From NCBI RefSeq assembly GCF_022984075.1, contig NZ_JALAAD010000001.1:2212455-2276454 (forward strand): a DNA stretch of 64,000 nt. Direction: 5' to 3'. Below are positions 1 to 54,659 of the stretch, piece by piece. Positions within the stretch are counted from its first letter, which is position 1; the number at the start of each line of letters is the position of its first letter. Both the position numbers and the translations under genes were made by a program. Origin of the DNA: Synechococcus sp. C9 (GTDB lineage: Bacteria; Cyanobacteriota; Cyanobacteriia; Gloeomargaritales; Gloeomargaritaceae). The notes under the pieces are model-generated. The model did not search any database. It saw only the letters and a list, made by a program, of their open reading frames with translations, and was not told where the DNA came from.

Positions 1-384
1 GTTATTAACGGTTTCTTTTTGCCGTTTCTTGTCAAGCCGGATAAACAAATCCACCAAGTCGGCGGTGGGGCGGTGGATTTTGATTTCCCACTTGTAAATA
101 TCGGAAGGGAAATACTCGCTAGGGCGGGGCAAATTGATACCGCTATCCGACTGGTGGCGGTAGCGGGTGACTTTGCCCTTTTCTAGCAGGTAATTAAAGG
201 TTTCCATTGCCGCTTCCACTGTCTCAAATGCGAGATACAGGAAAAACTTGGAAGCCGGGGGATAAAACCCTAACCGCACACGGGGGGCACCCACCGGGGC
301 ACTGATAACCAAACCGCCCTTATCATGAAGCACCTTCTCAATCTTGGAGCGGTGCCCTTGGGGTTGTGTCGCAGTTGTAGTCAT
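1..384 (-). CDS. hypothetical protein, 3' end beyond the window
   Basis: An open frame runs from ATG at 384 down to base 1 with no stop (128 codons seen), so the C-terminus lies outside the window. A good ribosome site (GGAGG) precedes the ATG by about 8 bases. The start reads MTTTATQPQGHRSKIEKV and the visible part ends ...LDKKRQKETVNN. It is a soluble, basic protein with no signal peptide or membrane segment, and I do not recognise the family. It lies upstream of the tRNA-Thr fragment at 1351, so it is probably part of an integrated element, in the same direction as the small gene at 447-632. Confidence 0.7.
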   Translation of the reverse strand, partial: MTTTATQPQGHRSKIEKVLHDKGGLVISAPVGAPRVRLGFYPPASKFFLYLAFETVEAAMETFNYLLEKGKVTRYRHQSDSGINLPRPSEYFPSDIYKWEIKIHRPTADLVDLFIRLDKKRQKETVNN

Positions 385-446
385 GGGAAAATACCTCCAA
401 AGAAATGTTTGTGAATTGCCCCGGAATTTCACCGGGGCTGTTTTGT

Positions 447-632
447 TTAACGGCGGAGCGCTTGCCGGTATACGCTCCCGGCAAGCTCACTGATCAGTCC
501 GAGTTGCTTCACCGGCTCCAGCGTGGCAAACAGCCGCCGAATTTCCGCCAGCGTTGCAGACTCCTCGTCCGTGAAATCCAAACTGCGAGGTGTCAAGTAG
601 TCGATCACCTTCGAGCGAGTTTTGTCGTCCAT
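447..632 (-). CDS. small hypothetical protein (61 aa)
   Basis: The frame begins at ATG 632 (MDDKTRSKVIDYL) with GGAG six bases upstream. A TTG at 644 in the same frame lies inside that ribosome site and is less likely. The protein is helical and charged, without recognisable motifs. It ends 62 bases before the next minus-strand gene, so the two could be co-transcribed. The 230-bp region upstream holds the GTATAC operator cluster shared with the divergent gene at 865. Function unknown; accessory-element context. Confidence 0.55.
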   Translation of the reverse strand: MDDKTRSKVIDYLTPRSLDFTDEESATLAEIRRLFATLEPVKQLGLISELAGSVYRQALRR

Positions 633-763
633 TGCTATCTCCAAAAAAAACTACAGATTGGAAGGCTTCAAACTTGGTTGACACCTATGTTGCGCTCAGG
701 GGCGGTTGTTGCCGGGCGTCCGCCTGCCCTATTTGATTGCCTTCCATATCTTTAATATAACCC

Positions 764-863
764 GGTATACAGCGTTATGTCAATCATTTTAGCAATGATA
801 ATTGATAACACTTTTTGCGGTATACAGCGTTATGTGATAAGATAGGCTTATCGCTGTATACAG
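764..863. promoter_or_regulatory. operator cluster: GTATACAG repeats between divergent genes
   Basis: A 17-base sequence starting GGTATACAGCG occurs identically at 764-780 and 819-835. A third copy is inverted at 852-861 (CGCTGTATAC) and forms the perfect palindrome CTGTATACAG at 854-863, directly in front of the start codon at 865/871. The same palindrome recurs inside the gene at 935-944. Repeated and inverted sites that overlap the translation start of a short gene with a ribbon-helix-helix-like segment are what an autorepressor operator looks like. Binding of that protein is inference. Confidence 0.6.
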
Positions 864-864
864 G

Positions 865-1278
865 ATGAGTATGCCTAACCCGTCACCCCGTCAAACTGAA
901 GAATTTAAGAAACACTGCTACCAGCCCAAAGGTGCTGTATACAGTGATTATCCTTTAGCAGATAAGCCTACGCAGGTGCGGTTAGCAGAGGATATTACGG
1001 CGGCGGTGGATGCGCTGGGCAACGACAAGACACCTTGGCTACGGCGGGTGATCACTGAAGCAGTCCGTAAGGAATTACTAAGCCAAGCACAGGGGACTGT
1101 ATCAGCAAACGAAGTGCCATCCCCACCACCGGCTAGTCCCCCCTTGGATGCAGATACCTTGGTGAAGGTGTTGAATGAAGTCTTAGCGGTACCACGACTG
1201 CCAGCGGCGGCTAAGAAAAAACTGGAAACCCTGCTAGAAACATTGAGCCAATCCCAGGGGCATTTACCGCTAGGCTAA
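865..1278 (+). CDS. putative ribbon-helix-helix DNA-binding protein
   Basis: 137 residues. Residues about 35-70 have the pattern of a ribbon-helix-helix (CopG/Arc-like) domain: a short beta segment (QVRLAE), a helix (DITAAVDAL) and a second helix (TPWLRRVITEAVRKELL). A Pro-rich linker and a C-terminal helical segment (VKVLNEVLAV...KKKLETLLETL) follow. There are two possible starts, ATG 865 and ATG 871; the second has AGGA five bases upstream and is as likely. Copies of a GTATACAG palindrome lie upstream and within the first 30 codons, suggesting autoregulation. It lies inside the presumed integrated element. Family assignment rests on pattern only. Confidence 0.6.
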   Translation: MSMPNPSPRQTEEFKKHCYQPKGAVYSDYPLADKPTQVRLAEDITAAVDALGNDKTPWLRRVITEAVRKELLSQAQGTVSANEVPSPPPASPPLDADTLVKVLNEVLAVPRLPAAAKKKLETLLETLSQSQGHLPLG

Positions 1279-1350
1279 TTGAGAATTGGATCAAAACTGG
1301 ATCATAAATTCCGGCTAATTCCTGTAAATCCCTGCTGGAGCCAACAGATA

Positions 1351-1398
1351 ACACCCTTGGTAAGGGTGAGGCCACGAGTTCAATCCTCGTCACGGGCT
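1351..1398 (+). tRNA. displaced 3' half of tRNA-Thr(GGU): attachment-site scar
   Basis: The anticodon arm is intact: stem CACCC/GGGTG (1352-1356/1364-1368) with loop TTGGTAA, anticodon GGU. A 5-base variable region follows, then the T arm ACGAG-TTCAATC-CTCGT and the acceptor 3' strand CACGGGC plus discriminator T. The matching 5' acceptor strand (GCCCGTG) and D arm are absent upstream. A 3'-terminal tRNA fragment of this kind is the classical footprint left when an element integrates into a tRNA gene. It should be non-functional; the intact copy is expected to the left of the window. Confidence 0.8.
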
Positions 1399-1574
1399 TA
1401 CCGGTTTACACGCTATAAACCCCGCCATAACCCGCATTCCACCGTTAGCACGTTAGTACAGATAGGGTTTAGATTGGGTACATTCGTGTTGATCTTTTAT
1501 TTAAGCCAGAAGAGGGCACAGACAAAGTAGAGAAAGCTCAGGAAGTTCCTTGCCAATTTATCACAACGAGAAAA

Positions 1575-1913: not shown

Positions 1914-3840
1914 TTAGAACGCAAATGTCGTCCGAATCGTATAAACTACCAAGGGGTCATTCTCGGACTGACCATTGGGGTTGAACACCACAAAGGCACC
2001 GGGGGTAACAGAAAGGAATTTGTTCACCTGGAAACGATAAAAGGCTTCCAAATGCACTGGCACCGAAGTATCCCGCAGGTTCAACTTACGAGGTCCTTGC
2101 GTATTCGTAGCACCAGCAACCCCCGCAGGAATATTGTTACCACTTGCCAAAGTACCCCCATTCCACTCACTCGCTGTCACGTATGGCGGAATCCCGACAA
2201 TCACCCCTCCCAAATCCCCACGACGACCAAATACATCCGGGAAAGCGAATTGTAGAGCGGCCGTTAACAGGTTGGCCCTGCGGGTGCCTTGTTTGACCCC
2301 CGGCAGAGGTGCCGTATCCGATTCACCCCGTACCCAGCCATAACCGAACCAACCTGCCAAGGTGAACTGGGGAATCGCCCGCCACTGGAACATCAGGTTC
2401 ACCGTCTGCATATTCACCGCCGTCCGACCGATTGCAGCCAACCCAGGTGTACCCGTCGGGCTGAAGGGATTGAAGGCAAAGTCCGTCCCGGTAGCACCTG
2501 TCAAATCGATACCCGATGCGGCTGTCCCACCAACACGATTCACATTCTCGTTGTACACCTGAGCAAAACCCACCCCAAATCGGAAGTCACGCCGGGGTTG
2601 CACATCCAATAAAAAGTTGGCGGTGTAATTGGAACCGAATAACCCCAAATCTGGGTTCCAGGCACTGGATTTCGCTCCTGCTGTTCCTGTGGAACTGGGG
2701 TTGGTGGCTTGATAGCTGGCACCAACGGCAAAAATGGGATTGAACTGATAATTCACAAAGAAGGATGAACCGCCGGGATTTCCTGGCCGATAAAACAGGG
2801 GATTGAACCGACCAAAGCGGGAAATGGCCGCCGTGCCATCCGAAGCCAAAGGAGCGTAACTAAAAAACTGAGCATCAATACCAGGACTGGCTGGACTGAT
2901 CTGAATCGTTCCCCGACCTTTATCAAAAGAGAAGCGGTAAAACAATTCATCCAACGTGACATTGCCGCCAGTAGCCGTATCAAAACTCAAACGAGCCTCG
3001 TTGGCACCCGTTGCCGCCGCTAAGTTGGCAATATCCGCCGCCTGCAACCGCACCCGCAGGAAGTCATTGCCCGTGAAGCTGGTATCAAAGTTCAACCGTG
3101 CCCGGTAGCTAAACGCCAGCTTATCCGCAGTGCTTGCCTTGAGTCCCCGTGGGTTAGCACCAGAAGCCACAACAGCACCCCGACCTGCCCCCGCAGTCAA
3201 CGCACCCGTATAAGGCCGGTTCCCGCTCAACAGAGCATTCTCAATCCGGTTGTAGGCAACTTCGGTATCATTTCACCCCATAGGGCGCAAAAATGATTTC
3301 ACTACGGAGCTTCGTCACCGTAGAAAACTGCTGTTGCTCCAACAATGCCGTCCGGGCTTCCAGCGCATCCACCCGCCCCCGGATAATGGACAACTCAGCG
3401 GCAAACTCCTCTTGCAACTTTTGCAAAACCAGCAAATCTTCCTTGGTCGCCAGAGGTTCCACAGCGGCGGCAATCAATTCATTAATCCGATCCAAACAGG
3501 CATTCAAACCAGCGGCAAACTCAAACCGGGTGGTCGCCCTGCGCCCCTGGTAGGTCGGGGGATTGGTGGGCAGACCAACGATACATCCATACCGCTCCAC
3601 CAGGGATTGCAGAGCCAAAAACGCCCAGTCCGTCGGCTTTACATCCACAAACTCAGAAACCGAAGTCACCTGCGCCTGATTCATCATCGAAGGGCCGACA
3701 TAATACTGTTCCGACCGTTGGAGCGTGGGATTGACCGGGTCAGCGGCAGGCACCGCTTGGGCACTGGTGATTCCCCCAAACGCCACCACACCGAAGGCGG
3801 CGGGGGCAACCTGGAAAATTTTCCGCAATGTACTACGCAT
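1914..3840 (-). pseudogene. SLH-OprB family porin, interrupted by a frameshift
   Basis: Two adjoining frames together encode one cyanobacterial outer-membrane porin. The upstream part (3840-3268) has a signal peptide, an SLH domain (FVDVKPTDWAFLALQSLV, residues about 65-120) and a coiled coil, and ends ...IIFAPYGVK-stop. The downstream part (about 3267-1914) continues in another frame with DTEVAYNRIENALL and the OprB beta-barrel, ending in the aromatic ...TTFAF typical of barrel C-termini. Removing one A from the AAA at 3271-3273 fuses the frames (V-N-D-T-E). Family members take up sugars or inorganic ions. The start is ATG 3840 (GTG 3843 also possible). The frameshift may be a real lesion or an assembly error; the rest of the barrel is uncorrupted. 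Confidence 0.8.
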
Positions 3841-3849
3841 CACAACACC

Positions 3850-4150
3850 TCACACGCTAACGCCTGGGCACTTGAAGAAAACTCTCAACTACCCAATTTA
3901 CTTTATTGATTTGCATTATCAGTAAAGTTGAGAATAAAATCAATAAGACAGTGGAGTAAATTTAATTTTTTTGTGCAAATATATTATTATTTTGTTTATA
4001 CAATTTTTACCTAAAAATCCTGTTTTAACTATAATTTCTGTAATCATTTAATTAAATGACAGATTAATAATTTTAGTACATTAAACTAAAAAAAATTAGT
4101 ACACTTACTAAGAAGCATTACTACACACTATTGCTTTATTGAGAACAGTG
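3850..4150. other. AT-rich gene-free stretch upstream of the porin
   Basis: About 300 bases of very AT-rich DNA lie between the porin start and the candidate small RNA. No plausible coding frame is present. It contains a perfect 16-base palindrome at 4044-4059 and a direct repeat of TTAGTACA near 4072 and 4098. The composition contrasts with the GC-rich surroundings and suggests a long regulated leader for the porin gene. Confidence 0.5.
4044..4059. promoter_or_regulatory. perfect 16-bp palindrome, candidate operator
   Basis: TCATTTAATTAAATGA reads the same on both strands. It lies about 200 bp upstream of the porin start and 100 bp upstream of the candidate small RNA. It could be a dimeric regulator site, but AT-rich palindromes also arise by chance. 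No regulator is assigned. Confidence 0.35.
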
Positions 4151-4163
4151 ATATAGTTTGGAA

Positions 4164-4267
4164 TGTGACAGTCTGTCCCTATGAGTTTTCGGACGGGCCC
4201 ACCAGGACTCAGACGACAGCACAACACAAAAAACACCTGAACAGCCCCTTTCCGAGGGGCTTTTTTA
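4164..4267 (+). ncRNA. candidate small RNA with 5' hairpin and intrinsic terminator
   Basis: A TATAGT -10-like box at 4152-4157 is followed about 7 bases later by a short transcribed-looking unit. GUCUGUCC (4171-4178) can pair with GGACGGGC (4191-4198) to form an 8-bp stem, counting G-U pairs. Then comes an A/C-rich single-stranded stretch (4199-4241) and a strong intrinsic terminator (4243-4266). No open frame with a ribosome site is seen. Hairpin, unstructured seed region and terminator is the usual build of a trans-acting small RNA. An attenuator for the gene at 4421 is the alternative. Confidence 0.5.
4243..4266 (+). terminator. intrinsic terminator
   Basis: AGCCCC-TTTCCG-AGGGGCT forms a stem with a GC-rich base and is followed directly by six Ts. 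It lies 145 bp before the next plus-strand gene, so it ends a transcript begun upstream, most simply the small RNA at about 4164. Confidence 0.8.
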
Positions 4268-4420
4268 GCTTTGGTGGTATAAAATTAGTGCGAAATCAGC
4301 GAATTTTTGCGGGGCACAGGTACCCGGAAAACCTGGGTAACACCGGGGTCGTAGGTTACTAAGTCGTCATTTGGCAAACTTTAAGCTAAGATTAAAAAAA
4401 GTTAGCCCAGAGTGATTGCT

Positions 4421-4741
4421 GTGTTTATTCGTTTAGCCAGTCAGCATCGAGAATTTGTCCGGGACTTGGTGATGAATCTCCAAGCCTTGGCGACGGTTTT
4501 GGAGCGGCAGGGGCGGTTGGCTTCCTGCTATACCTGTGGCCCGGCGATGAACAGTGCTTCGTTTATGGTCAGCTTGGGGGAAGGGCACCTGATTCGCTTT
4601 CTGGTGTCTGATTACGGTATTACCTGGACGGAAATGCGAGATGACCGGGAACTGATGAAGCTGGAAGGGGCAGAAGCCATTGCCCAGTTGCAGGAGTTAG
4701 CCAACTTGGTGCGCCAACCCGCTACCCCTGTGGAAGTTTAA
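4421..4741 (+). CDS. DUF1815 family protein
   Basis: About 106 residues: FIRLASQHREFVRDLVMNLQ, then LASCYTCG, ASFMVSLGEGHLIRFLVSDYGITWTEMRDDREL. This matches the conserved cyanobacterial DUF1815 family as I know it, including the SDYGITW block. Function unknown. GTG 4421 is preferred because the family begins at the equivalent of VFIRLA; GTG 4412 is the alternative. No clear ribosome site is visible. It converges with pdxA and overlaps it by 4 bases. Confidence 0.8.
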   Translation: MFIRLASQHREFVRDLVMNLQALATVLERQGRLASCYTCGPAMNSASFMVSLGEGHLIRFLVSDYGITWTEMRDDRELMKLEGAEAIAQLQELANLVRQPATPVEV

Positions 4742-5730
4742 GCCCCAAACCGCCGTTCCCACAGCCATTCTGCCCATTGCCACGCACTGATAAAGCTGGC
4801 GGGGTCGGCTTTGCCCTGCCCGGCGATGTCAAAGGCGGTGCCGTGATCCGGGGAAGTCCGCACCAAGGGCAACCCCAGGGTGGTGTTCACCGCTTGTGCA
4901 AAGGCTAAGGCTTTCACCGGAATCAACCCCTGGTCGTGGTAAAGGGCGATACAGGCATCCCAGGGGGAAGGGGTGTCCCGATGCCACCAGGCTTGGGCAG
5001 GGGCGACCCACAGGGTATCCGGGGGCACTGGACCGATGATCGTCACCTGGGGAACTTGCGCCCGCATGGCTTGCATCCAGGGTGCCAAAATGTCCTGCTC
5101 TTCCCTGCCCAGATGTCCTTGCTCCCCACTGTGGGGGTTCAGACCCGCTAGGGCAATCCGGGGTTGGGTCAGCCCGAAGTCCTGCTGTAAACTTGCCACC
5201 AGTAGCCTAAATTTTTCCGTCAGCAGTGTGGGGGTCAGGTGGGAAGGCACCTGCGCTAGGGGAATATGGGTGGTCGCCAGCACCATCCTCAGTACCCAAC
5301 CCGTATGGGGGGAGCGGGCAAAAAAAGCCATAGCGGTTGGGTGCGCCCCGACTGCCTGCGCCAAAAATTCCGTCTGCCCCGGGAAGGCATACCCCGCTTT
5401 CTGCCAGTAGGCTTTGGCAATGGGGGCAGTGACCAACGCCTGACACCCCAACGCCAGGGCGGTTTGCAGATACTGGACACTCAACGCCCCGGTGAGCGCC
5501 GAGGGTTGCCCCGGTTGGATCGGCTCTGGCGTGGGCACATCTACCACCTCCAACCGTGCTGGGTCAGCAACCACCTGTCCCAACGCCCGCAGACGTTCGT
5601 AGGTCGCCACCAGTACCGACCCGGAACCCACCACCCGCACGGGACAACGGGGGCGGTAGCGTGAGAATGCCCGCAGGATGATCTCCGACCCGATACCCGC
5701 CGGGTCCCCCAAGGTCAGGGTGATGGTCAC
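4738..5730 (-). CDS. pdxA: 4-hydroxythreonine-4-phosphate dehydrogenase
   Basis: 330 residues, the usual length. PdxA oxidises 4-phosphohydroxy-L-threonine with NAD in pyridoxal 5'-phosphate synthesis and binds a divalent metal through three histidines. Visible family blocks are LTLGDPAGIGSEI at the N-terminus, TAPIAKAYW, PGQTEFLA, TTHIPLAQV, LAGLNPHSGEQG, ALYHDQGLIPVKAL and TSPDHGTAFDIAG near the C-terminus. The three metal histidines are those in TTHI, NPHSG and YHDQG. The start is GTG 5730. It faces the DUF1815 gene and stands alone. Confidence 0.93.
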   Translation of the reverse strand: MTITLTLGDPAGIGSEIILRAFSRYRPRCPVRVVGSGSVLVATYERLRALGQVVADPARLEVVDVPTPEPIQPGQPSALTGALSVQYLQTALALGCQALVTAPIAKAYWQKAGYAFPGQTEFLAQAVGAHPTAMAFFARSPHTGWVLRMVLATTHIPLAQVPSHLTPTLLTEKFRLLVASLQQDFGLTQPRIALAGLNPHSGEQGHLGREEQDILAPWMQAMRAQVPQVTIIGPVPPDTLWVAPAQAWWHRDTPSPWDACIALYHDQGLIPVKALAFAQAVNTTLGLPLVRTSPDHGTAFDIAGQGKADPASFISAWQWAEWLWERRFGA

Positions 5731-5781
5731 AAATTAGGTGATCGAAGGGATGCCAAAAATGCCCAAACGTTGAGTCAGTTT

Positions 5782-6186
5782 CTATTCCTCTTCGCTGGGG
5801 ACAACCCCATTCAAAGAACGCTCCACTTGGGTCAGGTGGATATGCTTATAACCGGGCTTGATTTCAAACTCATCCCCCGGCTTCAAACCCATTTTTTGGG
5901 TGTAGGCGGCACCGATCACAATTTGCCCGTTGCGATGCACACTCACCCGATAGGTTGGTTCCCGACCCCGCCCATCCCGGGCATTATCAATCGCCACACC
6001 TTTGGCGAGCAAAACCGCATCCATGAAGTCGGATACGTTAATCCGTATTTTATCCCCTTTGACCCGGTAGTAACCACAGTATTTGGCTTTCTCCCGGCGG
6101 GTGAGATGACGCAATTCATCCACCTTTTTCAGGAGGGCTTTTCCCGTGAGTGGCTCCTTGGGTAATTCCAGAGTGGTTTCAGTCAT
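5782..6186 (-). CDS. cyAbrB-type transcriptional regulator
   Basis: 134 residues from ATG 6186 (MTETTLELPKEPLTGKALL) with AGGA six bases upstream. Upstream in-frame codons lack a ribosome site. The protein has the cyanobacterial AbrB form: an N-terminal segment (TRREKAKYCGYYRVKGDKIRINVSDF is the family block, residues about 30-60) and a C-terminal AbrB-like region (YRVSVHRNGQIVIGAAYT...LKPGDEFEIKPGYKHIHL). cyAbrB proteins bind DNA broadly and affect nitrogen and carbon metabolism genes. Single gene between pdxA and ilvH; promoter elements not clear. Confidence 0.88.
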   Translation of the reverse strand: MTETTLELPKEPLTGKALLKKVDELRHLTRREKAKYCGYYRVKGDKIRINVSDFMDAVLLAKGVAIDNARDGRGREPTYRVSVHRNGQIVIGAAYTQKMGLKPGDEFEIKPGYKHIHLTQVERSLNGVVPSEEE

Positions 6187-6343
6187 ATTGTTTCCTAGAA
6201 ATTCATCAATTTCTAGCATAGCAGAGTTGGTTTTATCCTCCTAGAGTTAAAAAGAATTTTTTTGGTCAATTTGCGAAACGTTTTGGGGAAATTTTGGGGA
6301 AATCGCCCCCATCCTCCCGGGAGAATCTGCCCAGACCATGTCC

Positions 6344-9237: not shown

Positions 9238-9690
9238 TTAGGGGACAGGCGGAATCACGAAATCTGCGAATAGCTGAACATTGAAGTCGTTAGTTGTTAG
9301 GATGTCAACAAGACGCTGGTCTTGAGTTAGTAAAGGAGCATTGTTTCTTTGGGATAGAACGACATAGCAAGCATCGTAAGCAGAAATGCTGTGAACTACA
9401 CTCAGGGAAAGGGCTGCTTGGATGAGATCAACCGTAGGAGTTGAGGTGAAACGGAGGAGTTGAAGATAAGACAAATTTGCCTGAGCTTCGGTACGGTCAT
9501 ACAACCCGGCACGAATATATTTCCAGAAAATGTTGGCACATTCGACATAAAATAAATCTGGAACATAAAAGTGAGCATTCGGATCATTAAGATGCAGAAA
9601 AAGCTGATCCACCTTGGGGGTCAAAGGCTCAATAATGAACTTCTTAATCCCCACGCTGGCATCAACTACACATTTGAGAGAAGCTGTCAT
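9238..9690 (-). CDS. PIN-domain toxin, VapC-like
   Basis: 150 residues. VDASVGIKKFI near the N-terminus, FYVECANIFWKYI (residues about 45-57), ISAYDACYVVLSQ (about 99-111) and LLTQDQRLVDI (about 117-127) are the four acidic PIN positions. PIN toxins are Mg-dependent ribonucleases that cleave tRNA, rRNA or mRNA. The start codon overlaps the stop of the antitoxin gene by 4 bases (ATGA), so the two are translationally coupled. Confidence 0.88.
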   Translation of the reverse strand: MTASLKCVVDASVGIKKFIIEPLTPKVDQLFLHLNDPNAHFYVPDLFYVECANIFWKYIRAGLYDRTEAQANLSYLQLLRFTSTPTVDLIQAALSLSVVHSISAYDACYVVLSQRNNAPLLTQDQRLVDILTTNDFNVQLFADFVIPPVP

Positions 9691-10055
9691 CGGTTGCGGT
9701 CTTGCTGAAGAAAAGTAAGGGTATCAGGCAAATGGTATTGCGCAGGGCAGAAAGTTCGACGCTGTTCAATTCTTTGCAAGATTTCCGCTTGGGAAGGCTG
9801 TACTTCTGCCTGATGGACACCATTGGCTTCTAAGTCAGTTAGGTCTTTCCCTAAGTCTGCAACACCGTCATCAATGGGAAGTTTACGACTCCTTAAAATG
9901 TGCAAAAACTCCTGTTGATTCATGCCTGCAAACTGGCTGGCAATACCCAAATTAATCTTATCCTGCTGAAATAAAAGAACGGCAATTTCCAGTTTGAGTT
10001 CGGCTTCAGAAATATGCGCCGTTTCTAAAAAATCATCGGGGATAACTAAACTCAT
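9687..10055 (-). CDS. UPF0175-type antitoxin with C-terminal extension
   Basis: 122 residues from ATG 10055 (MSLVIPDDFLETAHISEAELKLEI); GTG 10064 is an alternative. Residues 1-75 match the UPF0175 family (IAVLLFQQDKINLGIASQFAGMNQQEFLHILRSRKLPI), a helix-turn-helix protein found with PIN toxins. The remaining 45 residues (SQAEILQRIEQRRTFCPAQYHLPDTLTFLQQDRNR) are likely the toxin-neutralising tail, as in VapB proteins. AGGA lies 10 bases upstream of the ATG. It is the first gene of the pair, the usual order. Confidence 0.8.
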   Translation of the reverse strand: MSLVIPDDFLETAHISEAELKLEIAVLLFQQDKINLGIASQFAGMNQQEFLHILRSRKLPIDDGVADLGKDLTDLEANGVHQAEVQPSQAEILQRIEQRRTFCPAQYHLPDTLTFLQQDRNR

Positions 10056-10210
10056 AGCCTTCACTTCCTATTTTTATTTGGTTGGGGTATTTAGGATATG
10101 GGTATGCTCCTCAGAAAACATCCCAAGTGAAACCACACCAGAGACGGGTAGTTTACCAGAAGGAGTATGGTAATTTTAACCCAATTTTAGAAAGGCGTGG
10201 CAGGGGTGCA

Positions 10211-10252
10211 ACTCCCGCCGGACTGAATTTTCAGTAACCTTAGGATGCCATC
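10211..10252 (+). repeat. 42-bp direct repeat, right copy
   Basis: Identical to 9172-9213. It sits in the 243-bp gene-free stretch between the antitoxin start and the ABC ATPase stop. Nothing else was seen in that stretch. Confidence 0.9.
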
Positions 10253-10298
10253 GAGGGAATTTTCTTGCCAATAAGTAATCAATAAAAGTGTTCTGATC

Positions 10299-11069
10299 TT
10301 ACTCATCCCCACCGCCCAGGTAGGCGGCTAAAACAATGGGATTGGTTTGAATTTCCTGGGGCGTACCGACCGCTAAATTTTTCCCTTCCGCTAATACCCA
10401 CACCTGCTCACAGAGGGACATAATCACATCCATATTGTGCTCAATAATTAAAAAAGTCAGCCCCGCCTGATGCCACCGTTGAATGTAATCGCAGATTTGA
10501 TTGACCAAGGTGGGATTGACCCCAGCGGCGGGTTCATCTAACAACATCAATTGCGGTCGGGTCATCAGTGCCCGTGCCATTTCCAAAAGTTTGCGTTGAC
10601 CACCGGAGAGGGCCCCTGCGTATTCCTGGGCTTTAGCCGCCAAACCCACAGAATCCAGGATTTCCATCGCCGTCTCCCGCAGTTGCCGTTCCTGTTGGGC
10701 CACCCGTTGCGGTTGTAACCATAGGGGCCACACCTGTTCCCCCAGTTGCCCCGGTGCGGCTAGGAGTACGTTGTCCAGCACAGATAAACGGCTAAATACC
10801 CGTGCCACCTGGAATGTTCGCACCAAACCCCGCTGGGTAATTTGATGCTGGGGAAGGCCGGTAATGGGTTGATTGCGGAAGAGAATGTGACCACTATCGG
10901 GCTTGAGGGAACCGCTCAGCAGGTTGAATAACGTGGTTTTGCCCGCTCCATTCGGGCCAATCAGCCCCGTAATTGTCCCTGGTGCCACCGTGAGGGACAC
11001 GTGGTTCACCGCCGGTAGTCCCCCGAAACTTTTATGCAAATTGGTGGCGCACAAGAGGGGTTCGGTCAC
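10299..11069 (-). CDS. LivG-type ABC transporter ATP-binding protein
   Basis: 256 residues from GTG 11069. Walker A is GPNGAGKTT (residues about 37-45), the Q loop lies around LVRTFQVARVF, the ABC signature is LSGGQRKLLEMARALM and Walker B is LMLLDEPAAGVNP. The long insertion after the Q loop and AGVNP are typical of the branched-chain amino acid and urea uptake branch (LivG/UrtD). No permease, binding protein or LivF is adjacent, so the partners must be encoded elsewhere. Substrate cannot be told from this gene alone. Confidence 0.9.
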   Translation of the reverse strand: MTEPLLCATNLHKSFGGLPAVNHVSLTVAPGTITGLIGPNGAGKTTLFNLLSGSLKPDSGHILFRNQPITGLPQHQITQRGLVRTFQVARVFSRLSVLDNVLLAAPGQLGEQVWPLWLQPQRVAQQERQLRETAMEILDSVGLAAKAQEYAGALSGGQRKLLEMARALMTRPQLMLLDEPAAGVNPTLVNQICDYIQRWHQAGLTFLIIEHNMDVIMSLCEQVWVLAEGKNLAVGTPQEIQTNPIVLAAYLGGGDE

Positions 11070-18538: not shown

Positions 18539-18735
18539 AACGCTACGTTGCCAACGAGTTGGTTTATCAACCTGACTTGTAGCGCCGGATTTGCTTTAGC
18601 CCATACAGACATAGCCCTACCGTTCTGCCACAAGTCGGCACAGTAGGAGCTATCAACCCTAGGAACGTTGTGACAATGCTCAAAACGCTGGGCGGTTTCG
18701 GCGAGCTCCATCGCCATCATCTCTTCTTGTAGCAT
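18532..18735 (-). CDS. small hypothetical frame upstream of the antiporter
   Basis: Up to 67 residues reading MAMELAETAQRFEHCHNVPRVDSS, then LWQNGRAMSVWAKANPALQVRLINQLVGN. The composition looks protein-like (helical N-terminus, LWQNGRAxSVWA). It ends 7 bases inside the antiporter start, which would allow coupling. No ribosome site stands out. I do not recognise it; it could be a remnant. Confidence 0.3.
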   Translation of the reverse strand: MLQEEMMAMELAETAQRFEHCHNVPRVDSSYCADLWQNGRAMSVWAKANPALQVRLINQLVGNVALC

Positions 18736-54374: not shown

Positions 54375-54659
54375 GGTCAACGGATTTTCATCCTCCACCG
54401 ACTTTCGCCGGAGGGCACATACCCCTGGAGAATCGGACTCTCCCTTTACCCACGAAGTTGACCGGACGCACCGGCTTCGCTAGGGTAGCTCCCGTCGAGT
54501 CTCTGCACCTTCCGGGTCAATCCCCGGCTTGGCTCAGGATTGCCATATCTACCGCAGTAGGGTTAGGTTTCCCTGAATTTGAGAGCATTCACTTGTGGGA
54601 TTTCTCCCCCAAGGCTCAATAGCTTAAGTCCGTAGCGTCTACCATTCCGCCACGCCCCC
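54339..54659 (-). tRNA. trnL-UAA: tRNA-Leu(UAA), split by a group I intron
   Basis: The 5' exon is 54659-54626 and the 3' exon 54388-54339 (84 nt joined). Acceptor GGGGGCG pairs with CGCCCCC, discriminator A. Anticodon stem ACGGA/TCCGT with loop CTTAAAA, anticodon UAA. The T arm is GAGGG-TTCAAGT-CCCTC-like. The long variable arm fits tRNA-Leu. The intron interrupts the loop after U34. The gene is on the minus strand and overlaps the end of the CDS at 53490-54374 by 36 bases. Confidence 0.92.
54389..54625 (-). other. group I intron in tRNA-Leu(UAA)
   Basis: 237 bases, reading AAGCTATTGAGCCTTGG at the 5' end on the minus strand and ending GGTGGAGGATG with the terminal G. Internal blocks such as GGATTGACCCGGAAGGTGCAG, GAGACTCGACGGGAG and GTCCG are like the P, Q, R and S elements of group I introns. 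The 5' exon ends in U, as needed for the U-G splice pair. No open frame is inside. This site carries the well-known ancient intron shared by cyanobacteria and plastids. Confidence 0.85.

Follow-up and report, generated by a model that had tools for sequence, protein, structure and literature searches.

The first 1,403 bp of the analysed window (a stretch of 64 kb, G000:C1:2212455-2276454, from a cyanobacterial assembly of 2.96 Mb) are, to judge from the sequence, the right end of a 9,501-bp mobile element inserted into a tRNA-Thr(GGT) gene. Taken together, the data are best explained by a site-specific integrative element in tRNA-Thr(GGT) that lies in tandem with an older one and would spread in a helper-dependent manner, a reading to which we assign a probability of about 0.86. 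The coordinates of the features are listed in Table 1.

A split tRNA-Thr gene delimits the element

The 3' half of tRNA-Thr(GGU) is exact and intact at positions 1351-1398 of the window, where the letters ACACCCTTGGTAAGGGTG-AGGCC-ACGAGTTCAATCCTCGT-CACGGGCT comprise the anticodon arm with the GGT anticodon, the T arm and the 3' acceptor strand. As an earlier, sequence-only reading of this stretch had stated, the 5' part is missing: the Rfam tRNA score is 18.2 bits, under the gathering score of 29 bits because the 5' part misfits, and no complete tRNA was found in the 64-kb window by ARAGORN or Rfam. The initial 21 bases of the fragment occur once in the window, with zero occurrences expected from shuffles.

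A search with 89 nt from position 1351 returned one other match in the genome (89% identity, E 4e-27), namely a complete tRNA-Thr(ggt) gene at L036:7281-7352 (G000:C1:2204280-2204351), preceded by a tRNA-Tyr gene at a distance of 5 bp. Identity between the two copies extends over 53 bases, starting from ACACCC of the anticodon stem, with a weaker match of about 62 bp beyond; the copies are direct repeats 9,501 bp apart, start to start, with the fragment downstream on the same strand. The sequence-only reading had predicted that an intact tRNA-Thr(GGU) sharing the 3' bases of the fragment would lie to the left, next to a tyrosine recombinase; both are present, the gene of a 384-aa recombinase beginning 143 bp past the intact tRNA-Thr. 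Its interpretation of the fragment as the trace of site-specific integration is thus borne out by a 53-bp att pair with an integrase beside the intact tRNA-Thr.

A comparison with relatives lacking the insert had also been proposed, and the tRNA-Thr sites of two genomes of the same genus, G003 and G006, are empty, with other DNA downstream. The integrase has no match in G001, G003 and G005, and G006 contains only a 31% relative on a different contig. None of the three findings named beforehand as contrary to integration (no intact tRNA-Thr, no integrase, or the same three small genes syntenic in all relatives) was obtained.

The fragment might instead be a chance or decayed tRNA duplicate with no tie to integration, in favour of which it counts that free-standing tRNA fragments occur in genomes. 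However, an integrase adjoins the intact copy, the orientation of the copies is direct, the repeats end inside paired arm sites, and an identical layout was found at 32 further loci; the matching att pair and the integrase rule such a duplicate out, leaving it a negligible probability.

Arm-type repeats and the probable crossover site

The repeat AACTGGATCAAAACTGGATCA lies within the element at a distance of 112 bp from attL, and a copy with a single change is found about 46 bp from attR. Altogether, the two ends of the element share 13 10-mers versus 0.09 expected. Arm repeats common to both ends were also detected in the three other delimited elements (L186, L221 and L223), for which 0.08-0.13 shared 10-mers are expected. 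The repeat differs from element to element and is the same in both arms: TAGTCAAGATTTAGTCAAG in L186, AACTACCCCGA in L221 and AATTGGCCGGA in L223. Such element-specific sharing is what would be predicted for the arm-binding sites of a lambda-type integrase.

The att repeats start at tRNA position 25 in L036 and at positions 26-30 in L186, L221 and L223; therefore, on the most economical reading, the crossover would take place in the anticodon stem-loop. Anticodon-centred sites account for about half of the mapped islands and represent one of two common subsites (PMC4383910).

Table 1. Features of the element, its surroundings and delimited related elements (plain numbers are window positions; locus L036 holds the intact tRNA-Thr and reaches into the window)
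Feature	Coordinates	Strand	Remarks
Element right end	1..1403	+	Remainder at G000:C1:2204304-2212454, left of window
Integrase int, 384 aa	L036:7496-8650		Tyrosine recombinase, PF00589 Phage_integrase 9e-21
279-aa int-contiguous gene	L036:8656-9495		Starts 5 bp past int; no family
HTH_17 gene (AlpA/Xis-type), 73 aa	L036:9614-9835		HTH_17 7e-10 (PF12728)
DUF3854-DUF3987 primase/helicase, 797 aa	L036:9910-12303		DUF3987 6e-49 (PF13148), DUF3854 6e-20; PHROG DNA helicase
236-aa gene	L036:12288-12998		
57-aa gene	L036:13054-13227		Weak DUF2281
Hairpin repeats, intergenic	L036:13839-14130		Four imperfect copies, CACCA...TGGTGAAAC
Leftward small genes	L036:14213-15839		Extend into window
160-aa small gene	1..384 (5' part); whole L036:15357-15839	-	
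65-aa small gene	447..644	-	
Four CTGTATACAG-like palindromes	763-772, 818-827, 854-863, 935-944	strandless	
137-aa right-end regulator	865..1278	+	Ribbon-helix-helix-like by reading: QVRLAEDITAAVDALGN..WLRRVITEAVRKEL; adjoins attR
Arm-type repeat AATTGGATCAAAACTGGATCA (P arm)	1284..1304	+	Putative integrase-binding; partner AACTGGATCAAAACTGGATCA at L036:7470-7490 beside attL
attR core	1351..1403	+	53 bp = anticodon stem to 3' end of tRNA-Thr(GGT) + 5 bp; tRNA 3' half 1351-1398
Decayed second copy of integrase-side att arm (P' arm)	1404..1465	+	Outside element
Host chromosome right of element	1914..6219	-	OprB porin (two pieces), PdxA, cyAbrB-type regulator; DUF1815 on +
L186 element, G001	L186:2228-7648		5.3 kb, tRNA-Trp(CCA); 78-bp perfect att repeats; DUF3987 domain 64% identical
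L221 element			13.0 kb, tRNA-Ala
L223 element			10.3 kb, tRNA-Val

Gene content and the right-end regulator

No capsid, terminase, relaxase or conjugation genes were recognised in the element. NCBIfam gave no match for the primase/helicase, and the predicted structure of the 279-aa protein (mean pLDDT 35.1) was too poor for a fold search. The hairpin repeats between the 57-aa gene and the leftward genes, with a fold z of -3.2 and a pattern absent from the other fetched loci, could possibly represent a replication origin.

The description of the three small genes left of the fragment as unrecognised agrees with the lack of any convincing Pfam, PHROG or NCBIfam match, and the suspicion of unusual regulation proved well placed: the four CTGTATACAG-like palindromes are confined to positions 763-944 and absent elsewhere in the 64 kb, against an expected number of 0.42. 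They are probably operators of the right-end regulator. This protein has no Pfam match, and its structure model is poor (mean pLDDT 51.5) and unfit for a fold search. Its homologues are encoded in six loci (L036, L179, L181, L221, L223 and L235), and wherever it occurs in a delimited element (L036, L221 and L223) it is the final gene ahead of attR. Upstream of the regulator gene, the motif TGTATACA is present in L036 and L223 and, as three exact copies, in L181; TGTTTACAG stands at this place in L179. The motif TGTATACA recurs in distant genera.

The relic of an older element to the right

The fragment abuts the relic of an older related element at the same tRNA. Positions 1404-1465 match the integrase-side att arm (46 nt at 89%, E 1e-10), with an alignment z of 8-17 against ten arms; the match spans just 62 nt at reduced identity, which counts against our explanation. 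The same arm follows tRNA-Thr(GGT), tRNA-Val(GAC), tRNA-Arg(ACG) and tRNA-Pro(GGG) in G000, where only integrase scraps remain behind the Val, Arg and Pro genes; it is also present in G002 and G004, and absent behind tRNA-Thr of G003 and G006. Since it accompanies integrase scraps at other tRNAs and is lacking in the empty relatives, the arm is element-borne, and its copy to the right of attR therefore implies an older element that occupied tRNA-Thr first. The series of arms following four tRNA genes in a single genome, along with integrase scraps, documents successive insertions and their decay. No further tRNA fragment was found in the window. By reading, the outer arm starts with ACCGGTTTACACGCTA, near the CCCGGTTGACACGCTA of the G004 tRNA-Thr arm, a likeness that would fit an ancestral insertion.

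A normal tRNA-flank repeat was rejected as the identity of the downstream arm, which is close only in Thr-ggt, Val-gac and Arg-acg among 33 tRNA records, the next-best of these records scoring 21 versus 75 (Pro-ggg was found separately), and which is lacking in the empty relatives. Most other similarities behind tRNAs were discarded as att arms, as they begin off the tRNA end and resemble interspersed repeats.

For the tRNA-Thr of G002 and of G004, the latter a complete genome of the same genus, no second att copy was found in the approximately 20-32 kb searched, and these element copies therefore look truncated. To the right of the tRNA-Arg element of G004, a Pro-type att arm was observed in L179 (reversed 9365-10913, G004:C1 at about 2614000), leading into an integrase N-terminus in frame with what reads as phage-head-like sequence. 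This arm with its fused integrase suggests a decayed prophage that used the same integrase family.

Several other features were noted in the window. An interspersed repeat with terminal inverted repeats of about 21 nt (TATAGCAATCCTA..., 90% identity) occupies positions of about 1573-1796; dozens of copies occur in G000, G002 and G004, including one inside the integrase relic behind tRNA-Val. The OprB porin is split into two frames on the minus strand (1914-3230 and 3268-3843), both with PF04966, owing to a frameshift or a sequencing error. A fluoride riboswitch (RF01734, 41 bits) and a Group I intron (RF00028, 71.5 bits) are located on the minus strand at 18637-18724 and 54422-54635.

Related elements in cyanobacteria

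Relatives of the DUF3987 protein were identified in 65 of 390 cyanobacterial genomes at a cut-off of 1e-20. Among 47 loci, which include L036 and are non-independent, many coming from a few related genera, 37 contain an integrase gene, and in 33 of these the 3' end of a tRNA faces the integrase within 233 bp; these 33 loci involve 14 isoacceptors. The L186 element, consisting of int, two small genes and the primase in 5.3 kb, illustrates how small the unit can be. The L036 element is one member of a widespread cyanobacterial family.

One could tentatively go further and propose, with rather less than even confidence, an apparently undescribed capsid-free satellite or hitcher family, widespread in cyanobacteria, that comprises int, an int-contiguous gene, an HTH_17 gene, the DUF3987 primase and a conserved right-end regulator acting on TGTATACA, inserts at the anticodon stem-loop in at least 14 isoacceptors, and would switch targets via the att core while keeping its arms. 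No description of a cyanobacterial family with a PICMI-like core and its own regulator was found in the accessible literature, which excludes most subscription papers, the one on tycheposons included, and novelty is thus unproven.

Proposed mechanism and mode of transfer

The following scheme builds on what can be read directly from the DNA, namely both att copies, the integrase, the arm repeats, the gene order, the palindromes, the second arm and the empty sites of the relatives. The circular form would carry an attP whose core is the tRNA 3' half flanked by paired arm sites spaced by 11 bp. The integrase would recombine attP with the tRNA at the putative crossover site in the anticodon stem-loop, yielding a restored tRNA as attL next to int and a displaced 3' half as attR in the window. 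In PICMI, excision needs alpA, int and the int-overlapping gene, and prim is needed for copy number (PMC10803314); by analogy with these genes, the HTH_17 protein, possibly together with the int-contiguous gene, could act as the excision factor, and the DUF3854-DUF3987 primase/helicase could replicate the excised circle. The right-end regulator may control the divergent early genes via the TGTATACA operators. Because no capsid or conjugation genes were recognised, spread would occur solely with a helper, either a phage or a conjugative plasmid. Insertion would have taken place at a tRNA where an older related element already resided, and the att arm of that earlier insert was left to the right of the fragment. 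The element may still be able to excise and be active at present.

The mode of transfer can be read in two ways. The gene order points to phage particles: as in a PICMI-type satellite, a helper phage would switch on the HTH_17/AlpA gene, excision would be carried out by int together with the int-contiguous gene, the DUF3987 primase would amplify the element, and helper particles would package the concatemer. Besides the shared order, the presence of PF13148 and PF12728 and the lack of recognised capsid and conjugation genes, this agrees with the 4-nt overlap of int and the next gene in L181, the commonest PICMI arrangement. However, there is no fis site and the host belongs to another phylum; 2.9 million viral contigs (IMG/VR) contain no close relatives of the element, with no match to int and one weak partial match to the primase; and phage records match the primase only partially, at 25-27%. 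We consider phage-borne transfer a tentative option, rather less than an even bet.

Transfer as an integrating plasmid (a plasmid-like IME), with an initiator of the cyanobacterial plasmid type and spread by mobilisation or natural transformation, is suggested by the primase, which is nearer to cyanobacterial plasmid versions than to phage ones and matches 56 plasmid records, nearly all cyanobacterial among the matches listed. The DUF3854 domain, a plasmid replication domain in CyRepA1/2 (PMC10079941), and the ParA-type ATPase encoded in the related L221 element, a plasmid feature that speaks against a phage satellite, point the same way. On the other hand, no relaxase was recognised, the C-terminal part of CyRepA is DEXDc rather than DUF3987, and the related element of G004 has, by reading, RusA- and Rad52-like genes, which look more phage-like. 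This route is possible, at slightly under even odds. Few phage satellites or small integrative elements have been described in freshwater and terrestrial cyanobacteria, and a delimited family with known ends and a conserved regulator and operator offers genome markers and a direct test of phage-borne versus plasmid-borne spread.

Comparison with known systems

Tycheposons are satellite-like cyanobacterial elements that integrate into tRNA genes by means of a tyrosine recombinase, and the L036 element resembles them in these respects. The name tycheposon is found in PMC11389934.

Islander defines islands by a complete tDNA plus a 3' fragment of the same tDNA that has the same orientation, lies on the correct side and is 2-200 kb away, with a tyrosine integrase in the interval (PMC4383910). 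The L036 element has its fragment 9,501 bp downstream on the same strand and encodes an integrase with PF00589 (9e-21), while its absence from the same site in G003 and G006 is a supporting feature outside the formal definition; with no essential difference from Islander-type islands, it is a clean new member.

CyRepA1 and CyRepA2 are DUF3854 proteins experimentally shown to be plasmid replication proteins of cyanobacteria (PMC10079941). As in the L036 primase, a large replication protein carries the Toprim-related DUF3854 towards its N terminus; the C-terminal part is DEXDc in CyRepA, whereas the L036 primase has DUF3987 there, which sets it apart from the CyRepA proteins. Moreover, CyRepA1 and CyRepA2 belong to plasmid replicons, while the L036 primase gene sits in an integrated element with int.

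The element also resembles PICMI, a known minimal kind of phage satellite in Vibrionaceae, with the same order of int, int-contiguous gene, AlpA/HTH_17 gene and DUF3987 primase, a small size and no recognised capsid gene. The mandatory PICMI genes are int, alpA and prim, and the model uses PF13148 and PF12728 (also PF05930) (PMC10803314); the integrase, PF12728 and PF13148 are co-located in the L036 element. PICMI integrates next to fis, which was first an optional marker and later mandatory in its definition (PMC10803314), whereas the L036 element occupies the anticodon site of tRNA-Thr(GGT). The L036 element also differs in its cyanobacterial host, the extra DUF3854 domain and the extra right-hand regulator with predicted TGTATACA operators. 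PICMI DNA is packaged as a concatemer after induction by a helper phage, and the same may apply to the L036 element. Among tRNA-integrated islands the element is ordinary; it is a variant in that it represents a cyanobacterial family whose core is PICMI-like and which has a regulator of its own.
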